The position numbers and the translations under genes are program-made. From IMG/VR virus record IMGVR_UViG_3300017738_000015, positions 1 to 33,408 of that record: 33,408 bases of DNA. One strand, written 5' to 3'. This DNA comes from a virus. Of the stretch, positions 8,668 to 20,183 are shown piece by piece (the stretch's first letter is position 1; each line of letters begins with the position of its first letter). The notes below the pieces were generated by a model. It had not been told where the DNA came from. It searched no databases and saw only the letters and a program-made list of their open reading frames with translations.

Positions 8668-9126
8668 CTATGACAATAAGGTTGCTGACTTGCCAGCACC
8701 GTCTATTAAGGTTGAATATGCTTGTGTCATCAATGCAGACTTTCTTGCTTGTCCCCCTGCCCTTGCAAGAGCCGCTTCAGCTATTTTTCTATTGGCAGCT
8801 AAATCGCCAGAAAAAGCAATCTGCAACGAATCTTGTTCTATACCAAAATAAGTATCAGCTAACGCTTCCATTGGTGATCCTGCCATTTGGATACCAGATG
8901 CAGCAGTTGCCAATCTTTGCGTTGAGGCAATACGTTCTCCCTGTCTGCGTACATTAACATCAGTTTGAGCCGCTTGCTTCCTGACTAAATCTCTCTCTTG
9001 TTCTGCAAGTTTAGCATTATATTCACCGATTGCTGCTGCTGACTTTGCGGCCCCTTTCCCACCTGTGAAGCCAATAACACTTGATGTTGCTGCTGCTGCC
9101 ACCGCCGCTGCTGTTAATGGATCCAT
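8668..9126 (-). CDS. Internal virion protein, gp14-like (152 aa)
   Basis: The protein starts with an Ala-rich hydrophobic segment (MDPLTAAAVAAAATSSVIGF, residues 1-20). A long amphipathic helix containing AEQERDLVRKQAAQTDVN follows, then the signature RQGERIASTQRLATAASGIQ and an AALARAGGQARKSALM segment. This organisation is typical of the internal virion protein B/gp14 family of podoviruses (196 aa in T7), which forms an outer-membrane pore during DNA ejection. It sits exactly between the gp13- and gp15-like genes. The start codon shares one base with the stop of the gp13-like gene. Confidence 0.82.
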   Translation of the reverse strand: MDPLTAAAVAAAATSSVIGFTGGKGAAKSAAAIGEYNAKLAEQERDLVRKQAAQTDVNVRRQGERIASTQRLATAASGIQMAGSPMEALADTYFGIEQDSLQIAFSGDLAANRKIAEAALARAGGQARKSALMTQAYSTLIDGAGKSATLLS

Positions 9127-9548
9127 TACACCAACCTCGCGTATCTTATGTAGTCTGCTTTATTAGGGCCGTATCGCTCCATAACGCCTTCTTCCTTAAA
9201 GCCAAGCCATTTTACAAATCTGTTTGCAATCTTGTCTTGCCCCCTAACGCTTGCTTGCAATCTGTGTAAATGAAAATCCTCTTGTATGTGATCTAACATT
9301 ATTCCTGCATATTTGGCTATCATGTAAGGTCTTAATAAACCTTCTTGACTTACCATGTACCAAGCCTCGCCAACGCCATCCCACATAACGCTTGCGCCAC
9401 CTACAGCCACAACCTCATCATTTACAACACCAGCATAAGATGGGGAGCTAGCATCATTGATAAAAACATCTTTGTATGACTGTCCAATCTCAAATGGCGT
9501 TTTGATTTTATCTATATGAAACCGAGTCATTTTCTCAATACTAAGCAT
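9126..9548 (-). CDS. gp13-like protein with GNAT acetyltransferase fold (140 aa)
   Basis: The C-terminal half carries a GNAT-like pattern: an HRLQASVRGQDKIANRFVKW helix followed by LGFKEEGVMERYG, equivalent to the motif where GNAT enzymes place the substrate and cofactor pocket. The length and position match T7 gp13 (138 aa), a protein needed for correct assembly of the internal core and tail and whose family also looks GNAT-like. The acetyl-CoA loop (Q/R-x-x-G-x-G/A) is not evident, so enzymatic activity is doubtful and a structural or assembly role is more likely. The gene overlaps the gp12-like gene by 8 bases. Confidence 0.8.
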   Translation of the reverse strand: MLSIEKMTRFHIDKIKTPFEIGQSYKDVFINDASSPSYAGVVNDEVVAVGGASVMWDGVGEAWYMVSQEGLLRPYMIAKYAGIMLDHIQEDFHLHRLQASVRGQDKIANRFVKWLGFKEEGVMERYGPNKADYIRYARLV

Positions 9549-15397: not shown

Positions 15398-15607
15398 TTA
15401 CTCCTCTTTCATCATGTTATAAATATGCAGTATTACTGCCCTCTTCCCTTCTTCAAAAGCTGTAGCATTGGCATCGCCAGCTACATAACTCAAGGTACGC
15501 CAATTACAACGTGCCTCAAGATCGTCTAGCACTTGCTTACCAGCATGATCGCTAAACAAATCTTTATACATAACTTTCAGTTTTTTTAATTCATCCGGGC
15601 CTGTCAA
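15398..15607 (-). CDS. Bbp19-like small structural protein (69 aa)
   Basis: The sequence pattern F-x(3)-AGKQVLDDLEARC, then DANATAFEEGKRAVILHIYN, matches the small family named after Bordetella phage BPP-1 Bbp19, found next to portal or capsid genes of many podoviruses. The conserved core is a helix, a Cys/Tyr-rich turn, and the A-F-x-E-G-x-R-x-V helix. It overlaps the portal stop by 4 bases, so it is co-translated with portal. Its function is not established; a minor head protein is the usual guess. Confidence 0.8.
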   Translation of the reverse strand: MTGPDELKKLKVMYKDLFSDHAGKQVLDDLEARCNWRTLSYVAGDANATAFEEGKRAVILHIYNMMKEE

Positions 15608-17190
15608 TTTCCTAACATCCTAACTGCCTGTGCGCCTTGGGCGGCTGTCATAACGTCTTCCTGTTCTTGCTGACGCTCCATTTGCTCTTGTTGTGCTATG
15701 GCTTTCTGTTCTCTTTCTGCATCAACCTGATCTTGTGGCTTGACTACTTTCTTTGGAACACCAAGGCTTTCCATCACATGATTAACCAGACCATCTGGGT
15801 TTAAATGATCGGCTACTGGTATTGCTTGTGCCAGTGGAAGTAGTATCTCCAAAGCTTTCATTGTACCATTAAGACTGCTGGATTTCTGTGCGCGAGCCAG
15901 TGGTGATACATATTCAATATCAATCTCTTTGCCTTGCAATATCTCTGGGGCAGACTCAAGCAATTCTTTTCTAAGCATCAAAGCAAACACTCTATCAATC
16001 AATGGACGTAGCATTTCATTTTGCAACCTAGATAACACTGGCCCAATAACTCTAAACCGCTCCTCTGACCTTTGCATTACCTCTGTTGCTGTCATGTTTG
16101 GCGCACCACCAGAAAGCAACTGATCTACAAAAAACGCTGACCTTATAGCTGTTCTGCGCTGTTCTTCCATGTTCAAACCAATTGGAATATTTGCCCCTGT
16201 GTTTAGTGGCGTAATTGTATCCCTTGTCCCACTTCTAAAAAAATTGAGGCCACCAGGCTGGGTACGGACAGGGAGGAGAAATCCGTCATCAGGAACAAGT
16301 AGAGGTGGGTCTATTTGTTTCTGTGCAGCTTGTATAATGGTTTTTGACATAAGATTTAACATCTTAACATCAGGCAACGCCACCATAGCTGGTGACCGCC
16401 CCATGATTTCCCCTGTTGCCTTGAGAAACCGAGGCACAACGTATGGGAACTCTTCAAAACCACTTTCTGTCATGGTCTGCTTTGTTTCCATATCTATGTA
16501 TAAAGATGCAAACGGCATATTCTTATTATCAATTTTTGTTACATCACGCTCTTCTCTCGGAACAACAACGTGCAGTATTTCAACTTCCTCATCTGGTCTT
16601 TTCTCAAATTTTTTCGCAATAAAGTCGCCAACGCTTTCTATGCCAAACCTTTGCACAGCTTGCCTTGCTGGTATTTTATATTTGCGGAATACTGTATCGA
16701 CTAAACCAAACTGATCTTCAGCTATGTAAAACTCTGATATGTGTCTTGTGCTAAAACGCAAACTCTCTTCGTCCATCTCCACAAACATACAGCCTGTGCC
16801 AAACACAACGAGATCAACGTACATCTCATGTATTTCAGTTTCAAAGTTTGATACGTTAAAAGCTCTCATCATTCGCTGGCTTGTATCTTCTAGCCAACGC
16901 TGCACCTCTTCATCACGCCCAAGCTCCTCATCTCTAAGCGTTAGGTGAAACCAAGCTGATGCACCGCTTGTGAGCATACCGTGTAAAGAAGATGCAAGTA
17001 AATCAACAGCTTGTAGTGCTGTGCCATCAAAAATCAACTCCATTCGCTTTTCGCCTTTGGAGCGTTGCCTTACAATGTCTGCCTTTCTTGGCAGCATATA
17101 GTCAGCAAGGTCTTGATAATGGGTATCCCAATAATACCGTTGTCCTTCGTAATGCTTGAAACGGTCTATCAAATCTTTTGATGAATACAT
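15604..17190 (-). CDS. Portal (head-to-tail connector) protein (528 aa)
   Basis: Clear member of the T7/BPP-1-type head-tail connector family. The N-terminal YWDTHYQDLADYMLPRKADI resembles the family start. A clip/stem region follows with the signature TATEVMQRSEERFRVIGPVL and RLQNEMLRPLIDRVFALML (about 370-408). The C-terminal tail is Gln/Glu-rich and coiled (about 490-528). Length is close to T7 gp8 (536 aa). It forms the dodecameric ring through which DNA is packaged and ejected. It follows a small 72-residue gene by 3 bases. Confidence 0.95.
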   Translation of the reverse strand: MYSSKDLIDRFKHYEGQRYYWDTHYQDLADYMLPRKADIVRQRSKGEKRMELIFDGTALQAVDLLASSLHGMLTSGASAWFHLTLRDEELGRDEEVQRWLEDTSQRMMRAFNVSNFETEIHEMYVDLVVFGTGCMFVEMDEESLRFSTRHISEFYIAEDQFGLVDTVFRKYKIPARQAVQRFGIESVGDFIAKKFEKRPDEEVEILHVVVPREERDVTKIDNKNMPFASLYIDMETKQTMTESGFEEFPYVVPRFLKATGEIMGRSPAMVALPDVKMLNLMSKTIIQAAQKQIDPPLLVPDDGFLLPVRTQPGGLNFFRSGTRDTITPLNTGANIPIGLNMEEQRRTAIRSAFFVDQLLSGGAPNMTATEVMQRSEERFRVIGPVLSRLQNEMLRPLIDRVFALMLRKELLESAPEILQGKEIDIEYVSPLARAQKSSSLNGTMKALEILLPLAQAIPVADHLNPDGLVNHVMESLGVPKKVVKPQDQVDAEREQKAIAQQEQMERQQEQEDVMTAAQGAQAVRMLGN

Positions 17191-17193
17191 GAT

Positions 17194-17412
17194 TTACCCC
17201 AATAAAGTTGGTTTGCCACCTGATTCTTGTGTTTGACCGCCAAGCGCACCAGTTCCAGCAACAACAGTTGATTTTCTGCCTCGCCTTTGCTTTCTTTCTT
17301 CTGTCATGGCTTCCTGCGCCAAAGCAGACGCACGTTCCTGATCTATTTTTGTAACCTCTGGAAGAGCTGGCGGGGGTGGCGGCACGATAACTTTTGGCTT
17401 TAAAAATCCCAT
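17194..17412 (-). CDS. Small proline-rich head-region protein (72 aa)
   Basis: The protein begins MGFLKPKVIVPPPPPALPEV, continues into a charged helix (EERKQRRGRKS, about 39-49), and ends with a Gly-rich tail (GGQTQESGGKPTLLG). Short proteins with a poly-proline N-terminus and an RRGR-x-S/T-x-V-like segment are common directly upstream of portal in BPP-1-like phages. The MGFxKP start could be myristoylation-like only by coincidence; no bacterial system for that is known. Function is unknown; a minor virion or packaging role is inferred from the position. Confidence 0.75.
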   Translation of the reverse strand: MGFLKPKVIVPPPPPALPEVTKIDQERASALAQEAMTEERKQRRGRKSTVVAGTGALGGQTQESGGKPTLLG

Positions 17413-17414
17413 GA

Positions 17415-17831
17415 CTAAGCCTTCTCTACTGATTTTTTCTTTGGAGAAATACTTAAAGCTCCATAATCTTCCATAATCGTACCAGCTTGACCAGATCGTT
17501 TTGACCGTCTTGTACCTCTGCCTCTTGAGGCAATCAAGGTTTCATCATCTGGAACTACCTCTGGTGTAACCTCTGCTGTTACCTCTGGCGTTTCGCCATA
17601 CAGCATTGCTCTACGCTCTTGCTTGTTAGTACCCATCACAATATCAAAGGTTTCATCAGCTACCTTCTTATAAGGCTTTTCAATCAGTTCTTCAAATGCC
17701 TCATCAGCAACATTTTTTACGCCTTTAGCAACTTTTTTTACTGGCCTTTCTAAAGGCTCAACAATTTTTTTATCTACAAACTTTGTAACTTTTTTAAAGG
17801 TCTTTGTAATTGGCCTAAAAAAACTACCCAT
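17415..17831 (-). CDS. Lysine-rich amphipathic protein, function unknown (138 aa)
   Basis: Residues about 7-65 form a long Lys-rich repeat-like segment with periodic KK/V/F spacing (KTFKKVTKFVDKKIVEPLER, then KKVAKGVKNVADEAFEELIE), likely one or more amphipathic helices able to bind membrane or nucleic acid. The middle (about 80-95) is acidic with repeated EVTPEV units. The tail is basic again (RGRGTRRSKRS). It lies 9 bases after the HlyC-like acyltransferase gene and 2 bases before the 72-residue gene. The abundance of surface lysines and the neighbour raise the idea that it is acylated, but this is inference. I know of no characterised homologue. Confidence 0.7.
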   Translation of the reverse strand: MGSFFRPITKTFKKVTKFVDKKIVEPLERPVKKVAKGVKNVADEAFEELIEKPYKKVADETFDIVMGTNKQERRAMLYGETPEVTAEVTPEVVPDDETLIASRGRGTRRSKRSGQAGTIMEDYGALSISPKKKSVEKA

Positions 17832-17840
17832 AATATTCTC

Positions 17841-18251
17841 CTAACCCCACTGATGAAAGCCTAGCTTTTGTGCTTCGGCTCTCAGCCAAAACAACTGATT
17901 GTACCCTTTTGTTGATAACACATTTTTTACTTTACGAAAACCCAGTGCAATATTTCGCTTACCGCCTTCTGCTATAAAGTCAATCGCCCAAGGAATATCA
18001 CCCCCACCTTCGTACCCTTCCGGCATAAACTCCAACTCTTTTACATACTGACTTACCTGGTCATGGGTTGGAAACGCCCAAGACGCAAAAACAAACGGAA
18101 CACGGCCTTCATCTCTTAGTATAATAAATTGATTTGCTTTCAAAGGTGGGATCACATATTTGTCAAACTCTTCTTCACCATACCAATTATGAAAATTACT
18201 CCTACTCATTAAATATAAAACATCACTTATATCTTCGTTTGAGTGACTCAT
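17841..18251 (-). CDS. HlyC-family lysine acyltransferase (136 aa)
   Basis: The protein aligns by eye over most of its length with toxin-activating acyltransferases such as HlyC and ApxC. These transfer a fatty acyl group from acyl carrier protein to internal lysines of RTX toxins. Visible landmarks are SRSNFHNW with His21 (HlyC His23), the strands VIPPLKANQFIILRDEGRV and FVFASWAF (about 33-60), and GGGDIPWAIDFIAEGG with Asp91 (HlyC Asp92). The His and Asp needed for catalysis are both present at matching distance. It is somewhat shorter than HlyC (170 aa), ending shortly after the GFRKVKNV strand. It overlaps the large terminase stop by four bases (ATGA), so it is part of the late operon. 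No RTX repeats (GGxGxDxxx) were seen, so the target must be something else, perhaps a virion protein or a host protein. Confidence 0.82.
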   Translation of the reverse strand: MSHSNEDISDVLYLMSRSNFHNWYGEEEFDKYVIPPLKANQFIILRDEGRVPFVFASWAFPTHDQVSQYVKELEFMPEGYEGGGDIPWAIDFIAEGGKRNIALGFRKVKNVLSTKGYNQLFWLRAEAQKLGFHQWG

Positions 18252-19537
18252 AACGTAAACGGATTATACTCATTAACCGCGACCTTTTGAGGGGGTCTAG
18301 TATAACTTTGTCTATTCTCCAACCCAACAGCCAGATACCTAAACGCATCCGCAGCATGAGACGTGAAGTCATGCCTTGGATGATCTCTGAACATTTTTCT
18401 ACGATCATCCCATTCCTGTCTGTATTGTTTTAGCATTTCTATGCCTTCAGCGCACTTATCCTTATCAAAATGGCATTTAGGCATCAGCACTCTGGCAGCA
18501 TTGATGCCATCAGCCACTTTCATTTTCGGGACGACTTTGAACCTGATGCCGAGCGTGAACGCCGTTTCGAGGCGGCTTTTGCCCGACCCGAGTTCCCTGA
18601 CTTCGATGTCGTGGGGGGCGAGGTGGTCTCCCCAGTGATAATCCTTTTGACGTAGGACTTCAGCGTAGTGATCCAACCCAACACCGCTGCTTTCATAGTA
18701 GTCAATGACATTTACCGCTCCACTCCTAAATATCTGCGCAAACCAAATTGCTGTTGAGTCGTTTATACCCAAATCCCATGCGGTATGCACAGGATAAGCG
18801 GGGTCATAAGGAACTCTAGTAATCCTTCCGTCATCATCAGCATCAGATAACAACTTTCCATAATAAGCCCCTATGATTGCCGCTGTAAAGGAACACTCAT
18901 ATTCCTGTTCATACTGTTCTGGGGTCATTTGCTTCTTAGCAGCCTCAAGCTCCTCATCTTTCACAAGACCGCTTTCAGATGCCTTTACAACCTTCCAGTA
19001 CCACTGATCTGATCCATTCTCTGTCTCAACCTTGGCATTGTCCAGTAAATCATAAAAATGATTATGTCCTGCTGGTGTACCTAGAAATACAGCCGCACCC
19101 TCTCTGTCGGACAGGGCGGGTCTTACAACCTCCCCCCACACCCTTGGGTTTTGCATCCCAAACTCATCAAACACACACAGGTCAAGATAAATACCACGCA
19201 AACTATCAGGGTTCTCAGCAGACAGCAGCATCAGCCTACCGCCATTAGGAAAATCAACTCGTAGCTCAGTTTCATTAAAGTTCACACCAGGTATCACAGA
19301 TGCGTAATATTTCACATAATCCCACGCAATACGCTTGGCTTGTGTAAAGGTAGGAGCCACAAACGCCACTCTTGGCCTCGGTAGTTCACAAACTAGACAA
19401 TGTTTGATTAAATGATTTACAGCCCAGACTGTCTTGCCAAAGCGTCTGTGCATTACAAGCACATTCCAACGCTTTACGCCCTTGTGCATTTCTGCTTGCA
19501 AGTCTCTTGGCTTATAAGGAATGCGTACCTGTTTCAC
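18248..19537 (-). CDS. terL: Terminase large subunit (429 aa)
   Basis: ATPase and nuclease motor that packages DNA. A Walker-A-like loop HRRFGKT is at 30-36 and a Walker B strand LDLCVFDEFG at 118-127, with acidic D124-E125. The nuclease domain starts near 250 with HTAWDLGINDSTAIWF and contains HDIEVRELGSGKSR near 313-326. It ends with HDFTSHAADAFRYLAVG near 395-412; the Asp residues there are the likely metal ligands. The small terminase gene ends 6 bases upstream. About 34 codons (18527-18628) in the conserved nuclease segment have strikingly GC-rich third positions compared with the rest of the gene (see findings). Confidence 0.95.
   Translation of the reverse strand: MKQVRIPYKPRDLQAEMHKGVKRWNVLVMHRRFGKTVWAVNHLIKHCLVCELPRPRVAFVAPTFTQAKRIAWDYVKYYASVIPGVNFNETELRVDFPNGGRLMLLSAENPDSLRGIYLDLCVFDEFGMQNPRVWGEVVRPALSDREGAAVFLGTPAGHNHFYDLLDNAKVETENGSDQWYWKVVKASESGLVKDEELEAAKKQMTPEQYEQEYECSFTAAIIGAYYGKLLSDADDDGRITRVPYDPAYPVHTAWDLGINDSTAIWFAQIFRSGAVNVIDYYESSGVGLDHYAEVLRQKDYHWGDHLAPHDIEVRELGSGKSRLETAFTLGIRFKVVPKMKVADGINAARVLMPKCHFDKDKCAEGIEMLKQYRQEWDDRRKMFRDHPRHDFTSHAADAFRYLAVGLENRQSYTRPPQKVAVNEYNPFTL
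18527..18628 (-). other. GC-rich patch within the large terminase gene
   Basis: In these 34 codons 29 end in G or C, while the codons on either side use A/T-ending forms freely. The encoded segment (HLAPHDIEVRELGSGKSR region through FKVVP) is a conserved part of the nuclease domain and keeps the reading frame. Extra open frames on both strands over this stretch are a by-product of its base composition. A recombination event with a high-GC relative, or a chimeric assembly join, are the two main explanations. Confidence 0.7.
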
Positions 19538-19543
19538 AGATTA

Positions 19544-19921
19544 TCAACTTTCCCACAGTATCTTTACTGCACCGTCAGTAACCTCAACACCAGCCCTAGC
19601 CTTTTGCTCCCCAAACCGCTCTGGCAGTATCTTACTAACCTTCCACCTAACATGAGTACCATAATCCCTCAATACATTCGGATCATAGTCCTTACGCTTA
19701 TGAAGAGCATCACTATATAACTGATCCAACTCCTCTAACGCCTTCTCAGCACTCTGACGCTGTGCCTCCCTAATAGAACTCTCAAAAGCCTCATCCTGCT
19801 TCATAACCTTATAAACAGCACTACGGCTAATACCAACCTCTCTACAAGCCTCTACCAAGCTATAACCATCACCTAATAAACTTGCTAAACCCTCTTTCTT
19901 AAACCTTGTAAACCTAGCCAT
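19544..19921 (-). CDS. terS: Terminase small subunit (125 aa)
   Basis: I start the protein at the ATG at 19921 (MARFTRFKKEGLASLLGDG), because a GGAG site lies five bases upstream; the longer open frame back to 19990 lacks such a site. Residues about 10-45 form a helix-turn-helix (YSLVEACREVGISRSAVYK) that should bind the packaging site. The remainder is a helical oligomerisation region (AEKALEELDQLYSDALHKRK) and a short C-terminal strand that may contact the portal or large subunit. This is typical of small terminases, and the large subunit follows directly. It is the first gene of the long late operon. Confidence 0.88.
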   Translation of the reverse strand: MARFTRFKKEGLASLLGDGYSLVEACREVGISRSAVYKVMKQDEAFESSIREAQRQSAEKALEELDQLYSDALHKRKDYDPNVLRDYGTHVRWKVSKILPERFGEQKARAGVEVTDGAVKILWES

Positions 19922-20183
19922 GCTAACTCCGACTGTGTGTTGGAAAGGACTATTTAACACATATAGAGTGAGGCGGCGCGTGTTGGGCATACGGCAAAAA
20001 ATAGACCCGCCCCTACCTACTCCTTACTTGTTTTGTGACAAGCTTGTTGTGCCTGATTTGCCTTAGCTCTGTGTGGTCAAGATTTGTTAAAACACGCTAC
20101 AAACTCAAGCAAACAAAACAAATCAAGCTCCCTCTTCTCTCTCTTTTACTTGTCTACTTGTTAGACTAATAACATACATTCTG

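Follow-up and report, generated by a model that had tools for sequence, protein, structure and literature searches.

Acyltransferases of the HlyC type (toxin-activating acyltransferases, TAATs) have been described for RTX toxins and for the contact-inhibition effector CdiA. In class IV contact-dependent growth inhibition (CDI) loci, cdiC is flanked by cdiB and cdiA, and acylation of CdiA by CdiC improves target-cell recognition (PMC8510554). In phage T7, genes 7 and 7.3 precede the portal gene and are annotated as host-range and adsorption genes, respectively; gp7.3 is needed for adsorption (PMC3276506, PMC11784390), and particles lacking this protein do not adsorb (PMC11784390). Here we describe a HlyC-like gene lying between the terminase and portal genes of a large group of uncultured HTVC010P-type phages, as represented by the IMG/VR record IMGVR_UViG_3300017738_000015, the whole of which (33,408 nucleotides) was analyzed and is referred to below as the window.

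Family, fold and active site of the HlyC-like protein

The first-pass annotation, made from the letters of the window, had interpreted this open reading frame (ORF) as a HlyC-like lysine acyltransferase with an intact His/Asp pair. The ORF is real and encodes a protein of 136 amino acids (aa) on the minus strand, and its product scored 46.8 bits against Pfam HlyC (PF02794; E = 3.3e-12; curated cut-off, 25 bits), which bears out the family assignment. Among the divergent relatives tested, most likewise passed this cut-off, and one, L157, fell just under it (21.7 bits); a search of NCBIfam returned no meaningful match. At the sequence level the protein matched the solved structure of ApxC (4whn, E = 1.8e-5), and in this alignment His21 and Asp91 fall on the catalytic His and Asp of the toxin-activating enzyme. 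An AlphaFold2 model built from 32 relatives (pLDDT 84.5, pTM 0.79) was compared with the PDB using Foldseek, and the best match was again ApxC 4whn (E = 1e-7, TM 0.80, rmsd 2.1 Å); the predicted fold is thus related to that of ApxC, as had been proposed. Only three ApxC chains were found at E < 0.001, followed by GNAT proteins at E = 0.01 or worse.

Relatives were collected through the 136-aa protein itself and, independently, through two portal proteins. Conservation was counted in the 99 unique sequences of the first collection rounds, which extend down to 33% identity, using for each residue the sequences that cover its position. His21 was present in 96/96 and Asp91 in 98/98 covering sequences, and Ser18, Pro61, Tyr69, Phe75, Gly84, Trp88, Ile93, Gly116 and Arg124 were also conserved. 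No close or moderately distant homologue therefore lacks either residue of the pair, and the claim of its retention holds for this clade; it does not extend to more distant pelagiphage HlyC-like proteins, which lack the His. Pairwise ratios of nonsynonymous to synonymous substitution (dN/dS) ranged from 0.04 to 0.24, indicating that the gene is under purifying selection. The CoA-binding signature of GNAT enzymes (the acetyl-CoA P-loop, [QR]xxGx[GA]) occurred in none of the 99 relatives. No RTX nonapeptide (GGxGxDxx[hydrophobic] type) was detected in any frame of the window, in agreement with the first-pass annotation, and no RTX toxin was found in the relatives, where only lone single nonapeptide matches occurred, in other proteins. 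One scan of bacterial genomes for relatives gave no match. Taken as a whole, sequence and model support well the identification of this protein as an enzyme of the HlyC/TAAT type.

Pairing with the downstream gene and exchange of the locus

In one scan, 303 viral contigs returned a HlyC relative. The survey set consisted of 122 distinct, complete terL–portal intervals in IMG/VR, and the HlyC gene was present in 118 of them, a figure that is not an unbiased prevalence because some of the intervals had entered the set through the HlyC query. The gene is near-universal in its HTVC010P-type phage group, and in the portal-query set alone it was found in the great majority of complete intervals. The HlyC proteins of the 118 intervals formed 26 clusters at 70% identity, and in 113 of the 118 the HlyC start overlapped the TerL stop as ATGA.

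The gene that follows HlyC, here called the cassette partner, was present together with HlyC in 118 of the 122 intervals and absent together with it in the other four; no mixed interval was observed, and a partner ORF was located in every HlyC-bearing interval. The four intervals without both genes (L262, L272, L280 and L167) keep only the gene for a 72-aa protein. Five cultured HlyC-less phages were also searched, HTVC010P as a complete genome and Lederberg, HTVC028P, HTVC024P and Baldr as fragments: the profile of the partner C-terminus matched none of their six-frame ORFs, and the 72-aa profile matched all five. Since the 72-aa gene is present whether HlyC is present or absent, it lies outside the HlyC–partner pair. 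The pairing of enzyme and partner is thus obligate, and this strict co-occurrence is real support for the partner as the counterpart of the enzyme.

The window partner begins with MGS, followed by a variable Lys-rich N-terminal part, the linker TPEVTAEVTPEVVPDD (TPEVTPEV type) and the conserved C-terminal motif RRSKRSGQAGTIMEDYG (like RRxKRxGQAGTxxExYG). Across relatives the N-terminal part is highly variable and either Lys-rich or Gly-rich. The earlier description of the neighbor as Lys-rich consequently applies to the 138-aa protein itself and not to all of its relatives, some of which, in HlyC-bearing phages, have as few as 2 lysines. No correspondence was found between partner N-terminal type and HlyC clade. 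In L180, an extra 70-aa Lys-rich ORF ending in KISKTILG (1398–1610) is located between HlyC and the partner.

A comparison of closely related sequences showed that the locus is exchanged as a unit. In L213 (same contig as L112), TerL, portal and capsid proteins were 99–100% identical to those of the window, whereas HlyC was 54% and the partner about 70% identical. At the DNA level, the two were about 90–100% identical from terS to the major capsid protein gene, except across HlyC and the stretch encoding the partner N-terminal part, where identity was 27–82%. This low-identity block starts where terL ends and extends across the partner (window 17300–18290, compared with L213/L112), and one further short dip was observed at 15580. 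HlyC and the partner N-terminal part have therefore been swapped as one block in L213. In L111, HlyC was 90% identical to that of the window but the partner N-terminal part was replaced, which indicates that this part can change without HlyC. Together, the two cases identify the locus as a hot spot of exchange.

Genomic context in the window

The 33.4-kb record represents all or nearly all of the genome of a tailed phage, an HTVC010P-type podovirus. Its terminase and portal proteins are 51–52% and 58–60% identical, respectively, to those of pelagiphages HTVC010P, HTVC034P and Lederberg. Its G+C content is 42%, compared with 32–34% in sequence of three HTVC010P-type pelagiphages, and a host other than SAR11 is therefore conceivable. 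The late operon lies on the minus strand and begins with the genes of Table 1; these are followed by Bbp19-like, scaffold, capsid, tail tube A and tail tube B genes, and finally by genes for T7-like internal virion proteins (gp13-, gp14- and gp16-like) and the tail fiber. The placement of the HlyC-like gene in the packaging/head operon was correctly recognized in the first-pass annotation.

Table 1. First genes of the late operon, in order of transcription, with their positions in the window
Feature	Position	Strand	Evidence
Small terminase subunit	19544..19990	-	Sf6-type terminase small subunit; phrog_1482
Large terminase subunit (TerL); stop codon overlaps HlyC start (ATGA)	18248..19537	-	
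HlyC/TAAT-type acyltransferase, 136 aa, His21 and Asp91	17841..18251	-	Pfam HlyC; ApxC sequence and predicted fold; conservation; dN/dS
Cassette partner, 138 aa	17415..17831	-	Present or absent together with HlyC; weak PF11653 match
72-aa protein, phrog_831-like; found with or without HlyC	17194..17412	-	
Portal / head-tail connector	15604..17190	-	PF12236, E = 6.9e-151; phrog_332

Two further proteins of acyltransferase appearance were observed. In Pelagibacter phage Baldr, a GNAT-type acyl-CoA N-acyltransferase (L037 4860–5297; phrog_4470, E = 4e-22) is encoded in the TerL–portal interval, which is possibly a recurring slot for acyltransferase-fold proteins. In the window, the gp13-like internal virion protein (9126–9548, minus strand; phrog_308, E = 1.9e-9) also matches phrog_4470 weakly (E = 0.029), and from its GNAT-like look the operon may hold two acyltransferase-fold proteins.

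Proposed function and alternatives

We propose, with a probability of roughly 45%, that the protein is an acyl-ACP-dependent acyltransferase (ACP, acyl carrier protein) that acts late on a virion protein, first of all on the partner, for entry. A working TAAT/HlyC-type enzyme, translated together with the terminase late in infection, would take a fatty acyl chain from host ACP through His21/Asp91 and transfer it to an amino group in a phage protein that becomes part of the tail or is ejected during infection. The likeliest acceptor would be the product of the next gene, and the lipid would aid the particle in engaging or crossing the host envelope, much as CdiC-acylated CdiA binds target cells. 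This proposal builds on the family, fold and active site, the lack of an acetyl-CoA P-loop, purifying selection, obligate pairing and conserved place of the gene. Late expression is suggested by the position in the operon; we infer the donor, the acceptor and the role in entry, and the choice of the partner as acceptor also leans on the likeness to CdiC–CdiA and to T7 gp7.3. In other pelagiphages, HlyC-like genes immediately precede the gene for a large putative tail protein, which is consistent with the proposal. It is conceivable, at somewhat less than even odds, that an abundant marine podovirus group fatty-acylates one of its own adsorption or ejection proteins, its virions carrying covalent lipid that would aid attachment or envelope crossing.

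Several observations weigh against this proposal. The partner shows only weak homology to T7 gp7.3 (PF11653, 18.8 bits, E = 0.0024, under the cut-off of 25; hhalign 45%), and the four HlyC-less gaps probably go back to no more than about two loss events. Partner N-terminal type does not follow HlyC clade, as the Lys-rich L126 and the Gly-rich L153 of the same clade show, and relatives of the HlyC-like proteins labeled in other pelagiphages carry a Tyr or Trp where the catalytic His would stand. Moreover, the partner has no invariant lysine. The best position was K in 87 of 101 C-termini, and six partners lacked any lysine in the last 45 residues; a C-terminal lysine as universal acceptor, absent from 14/101, was therefore ruled out. 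The earlier suggestion that the neighbor is the acylation partner thus gains from the strict co-occurrence (118/118 versus 0/4) and loses from the missing acceptor lysine. The N-terminal glycine is another candidate acceptor, as 112 of 118 partners start with MG; counting against it, three start with MA, and similar small proteins of HlyC-less phages also start with MG.

The lack of an invariant acceptor lysine would also suit an active HlyC-type enzyme with a different target, either another virion protein or a host envelope or defense protein, with the partner required for something else, for instance to confer specificity or aid delivery. The swapping of the locus as a block between near-identical phages, as often seen with host-interaction genes, points the same way, as do HTVC103P and HTVC104P, where the HlyC-like gene lies next to ssb and primase genes in the early region and not among structural genes. 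The place of the gene inside the packaging/head operon and its strict pairing with one structural-region gene count against such a target, and we consider it rather unlikely. A non-acylating structural or assembly factor with a retained fold, such as a chaperone for the partner, appears improbable: distant pelagiphage HlyC-like proteins with Tyr or Trp for His, and some with Glu for Asp, indicate that the fold can persist without the complete pair, and the protein is short (136 aa, compared with 183 residues in the ApxC chain), but His21 and Asp91 never vary within this clade, even as most of the remaining sequence diverges.

A GNAT-type acetyltransferase using acetyl-CoA, the counterpart of GNAT-like proteins found in or near the same place in other podoviruses, would fit the rank of GNATs after ApxC in the fold search and the Baldr enzyme between TerL and portal. 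Weak fold matches included 'host specificity protein A' of Citrobacter phage CR8 and Vibrio phage ICP3, a name given to the gene 7 product in one T7 record. We regard this explanation as likewise improbable, given that the E-value of ApxC was five orders of magnitude ahead of that of every GNAT, that the CoA-binding signature was missing throughout (0/99) and that profile comparison with the T7 gp7 family found nothing.

Comparison with known systems

HlyC-like genes of other pelagiphages have already been labeled in GenBank (HTVC026P, 103P, 104P, 111P, 112P and 115P) as 'toxin-activating lysine-acyltransferase' or 'putative RTX toxin acyltransferase family protein', a phage protein in BFVD carries the HlyC name, and phrog_20210 (function unknown) is matched by both HTVC115P and the window. 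By tblastn, and by Pfam where tested, the labeled proteins belong to the same family as the window protein, and several adjoin tail genes: in HTVC112P, 026P and 111P, the HlyC-like gene immediately precedes that for a large putative tail protein. Their relatives differ in genome position and share only about 17–24% identity with the window protein. In three pelagiphages, the HlyC-like gene (L047 6986–7372, L050 6920–7333 and L051 6929–7336) comes a few genes after that for the tape measure protein and immediately ahead of that for a large putative tail protein; none of the three products has the catalytic His. In L106, L107 and L109, Glu replaces Asp and Tyr replaces His, and other fold motifs are retained.

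No paper on phage HlyC-like proteins was found in a literature search whose coverage excluded most subscription journals. The family is already known; the new elements are a clade whose active site is intact, the near-universal presence of this clade in one phage group, its obligate partner and the exchange of the locus as a block. If the enzyme acts on a virion protein, fatty acylation would be part of infection by some common ocean viruses, and a tailed phage would possess a lipid-modified entry apparatus.

The locus resembles T7 genes 7 and 7.3 in that a protein of about 133 aa, followed by a small Lys-rich protein starting with MG, is encoded before the portal, and the partner occupies the place of gp7.3. 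The enzyme itself was rejected as a homologue of T7 gp7 (host range, phrog_2746; hhalign probability < 2% both ways), so that the two have only position and general fold in common. With ApxC, HlyC and CyaC the phage enzyme shares sequence family, predicted fold, the catalytic His and Asp and the lack of an acetyl-CoA P-loop, whereas it is encoded by a virus in the terminase–portal region, has a shorter C-terminus and adjoins no RTX toxin. The arrangement likewise recalls CdiC, a TAAT enzyme with the His/Asp pair that adjoins a non-RTX protein (PMC8510554), but the substrate of CdiC is a large surface effector, whereas the neighbor of the phage enzyme is a small, largely low-complexity protein and a candidate substrate.
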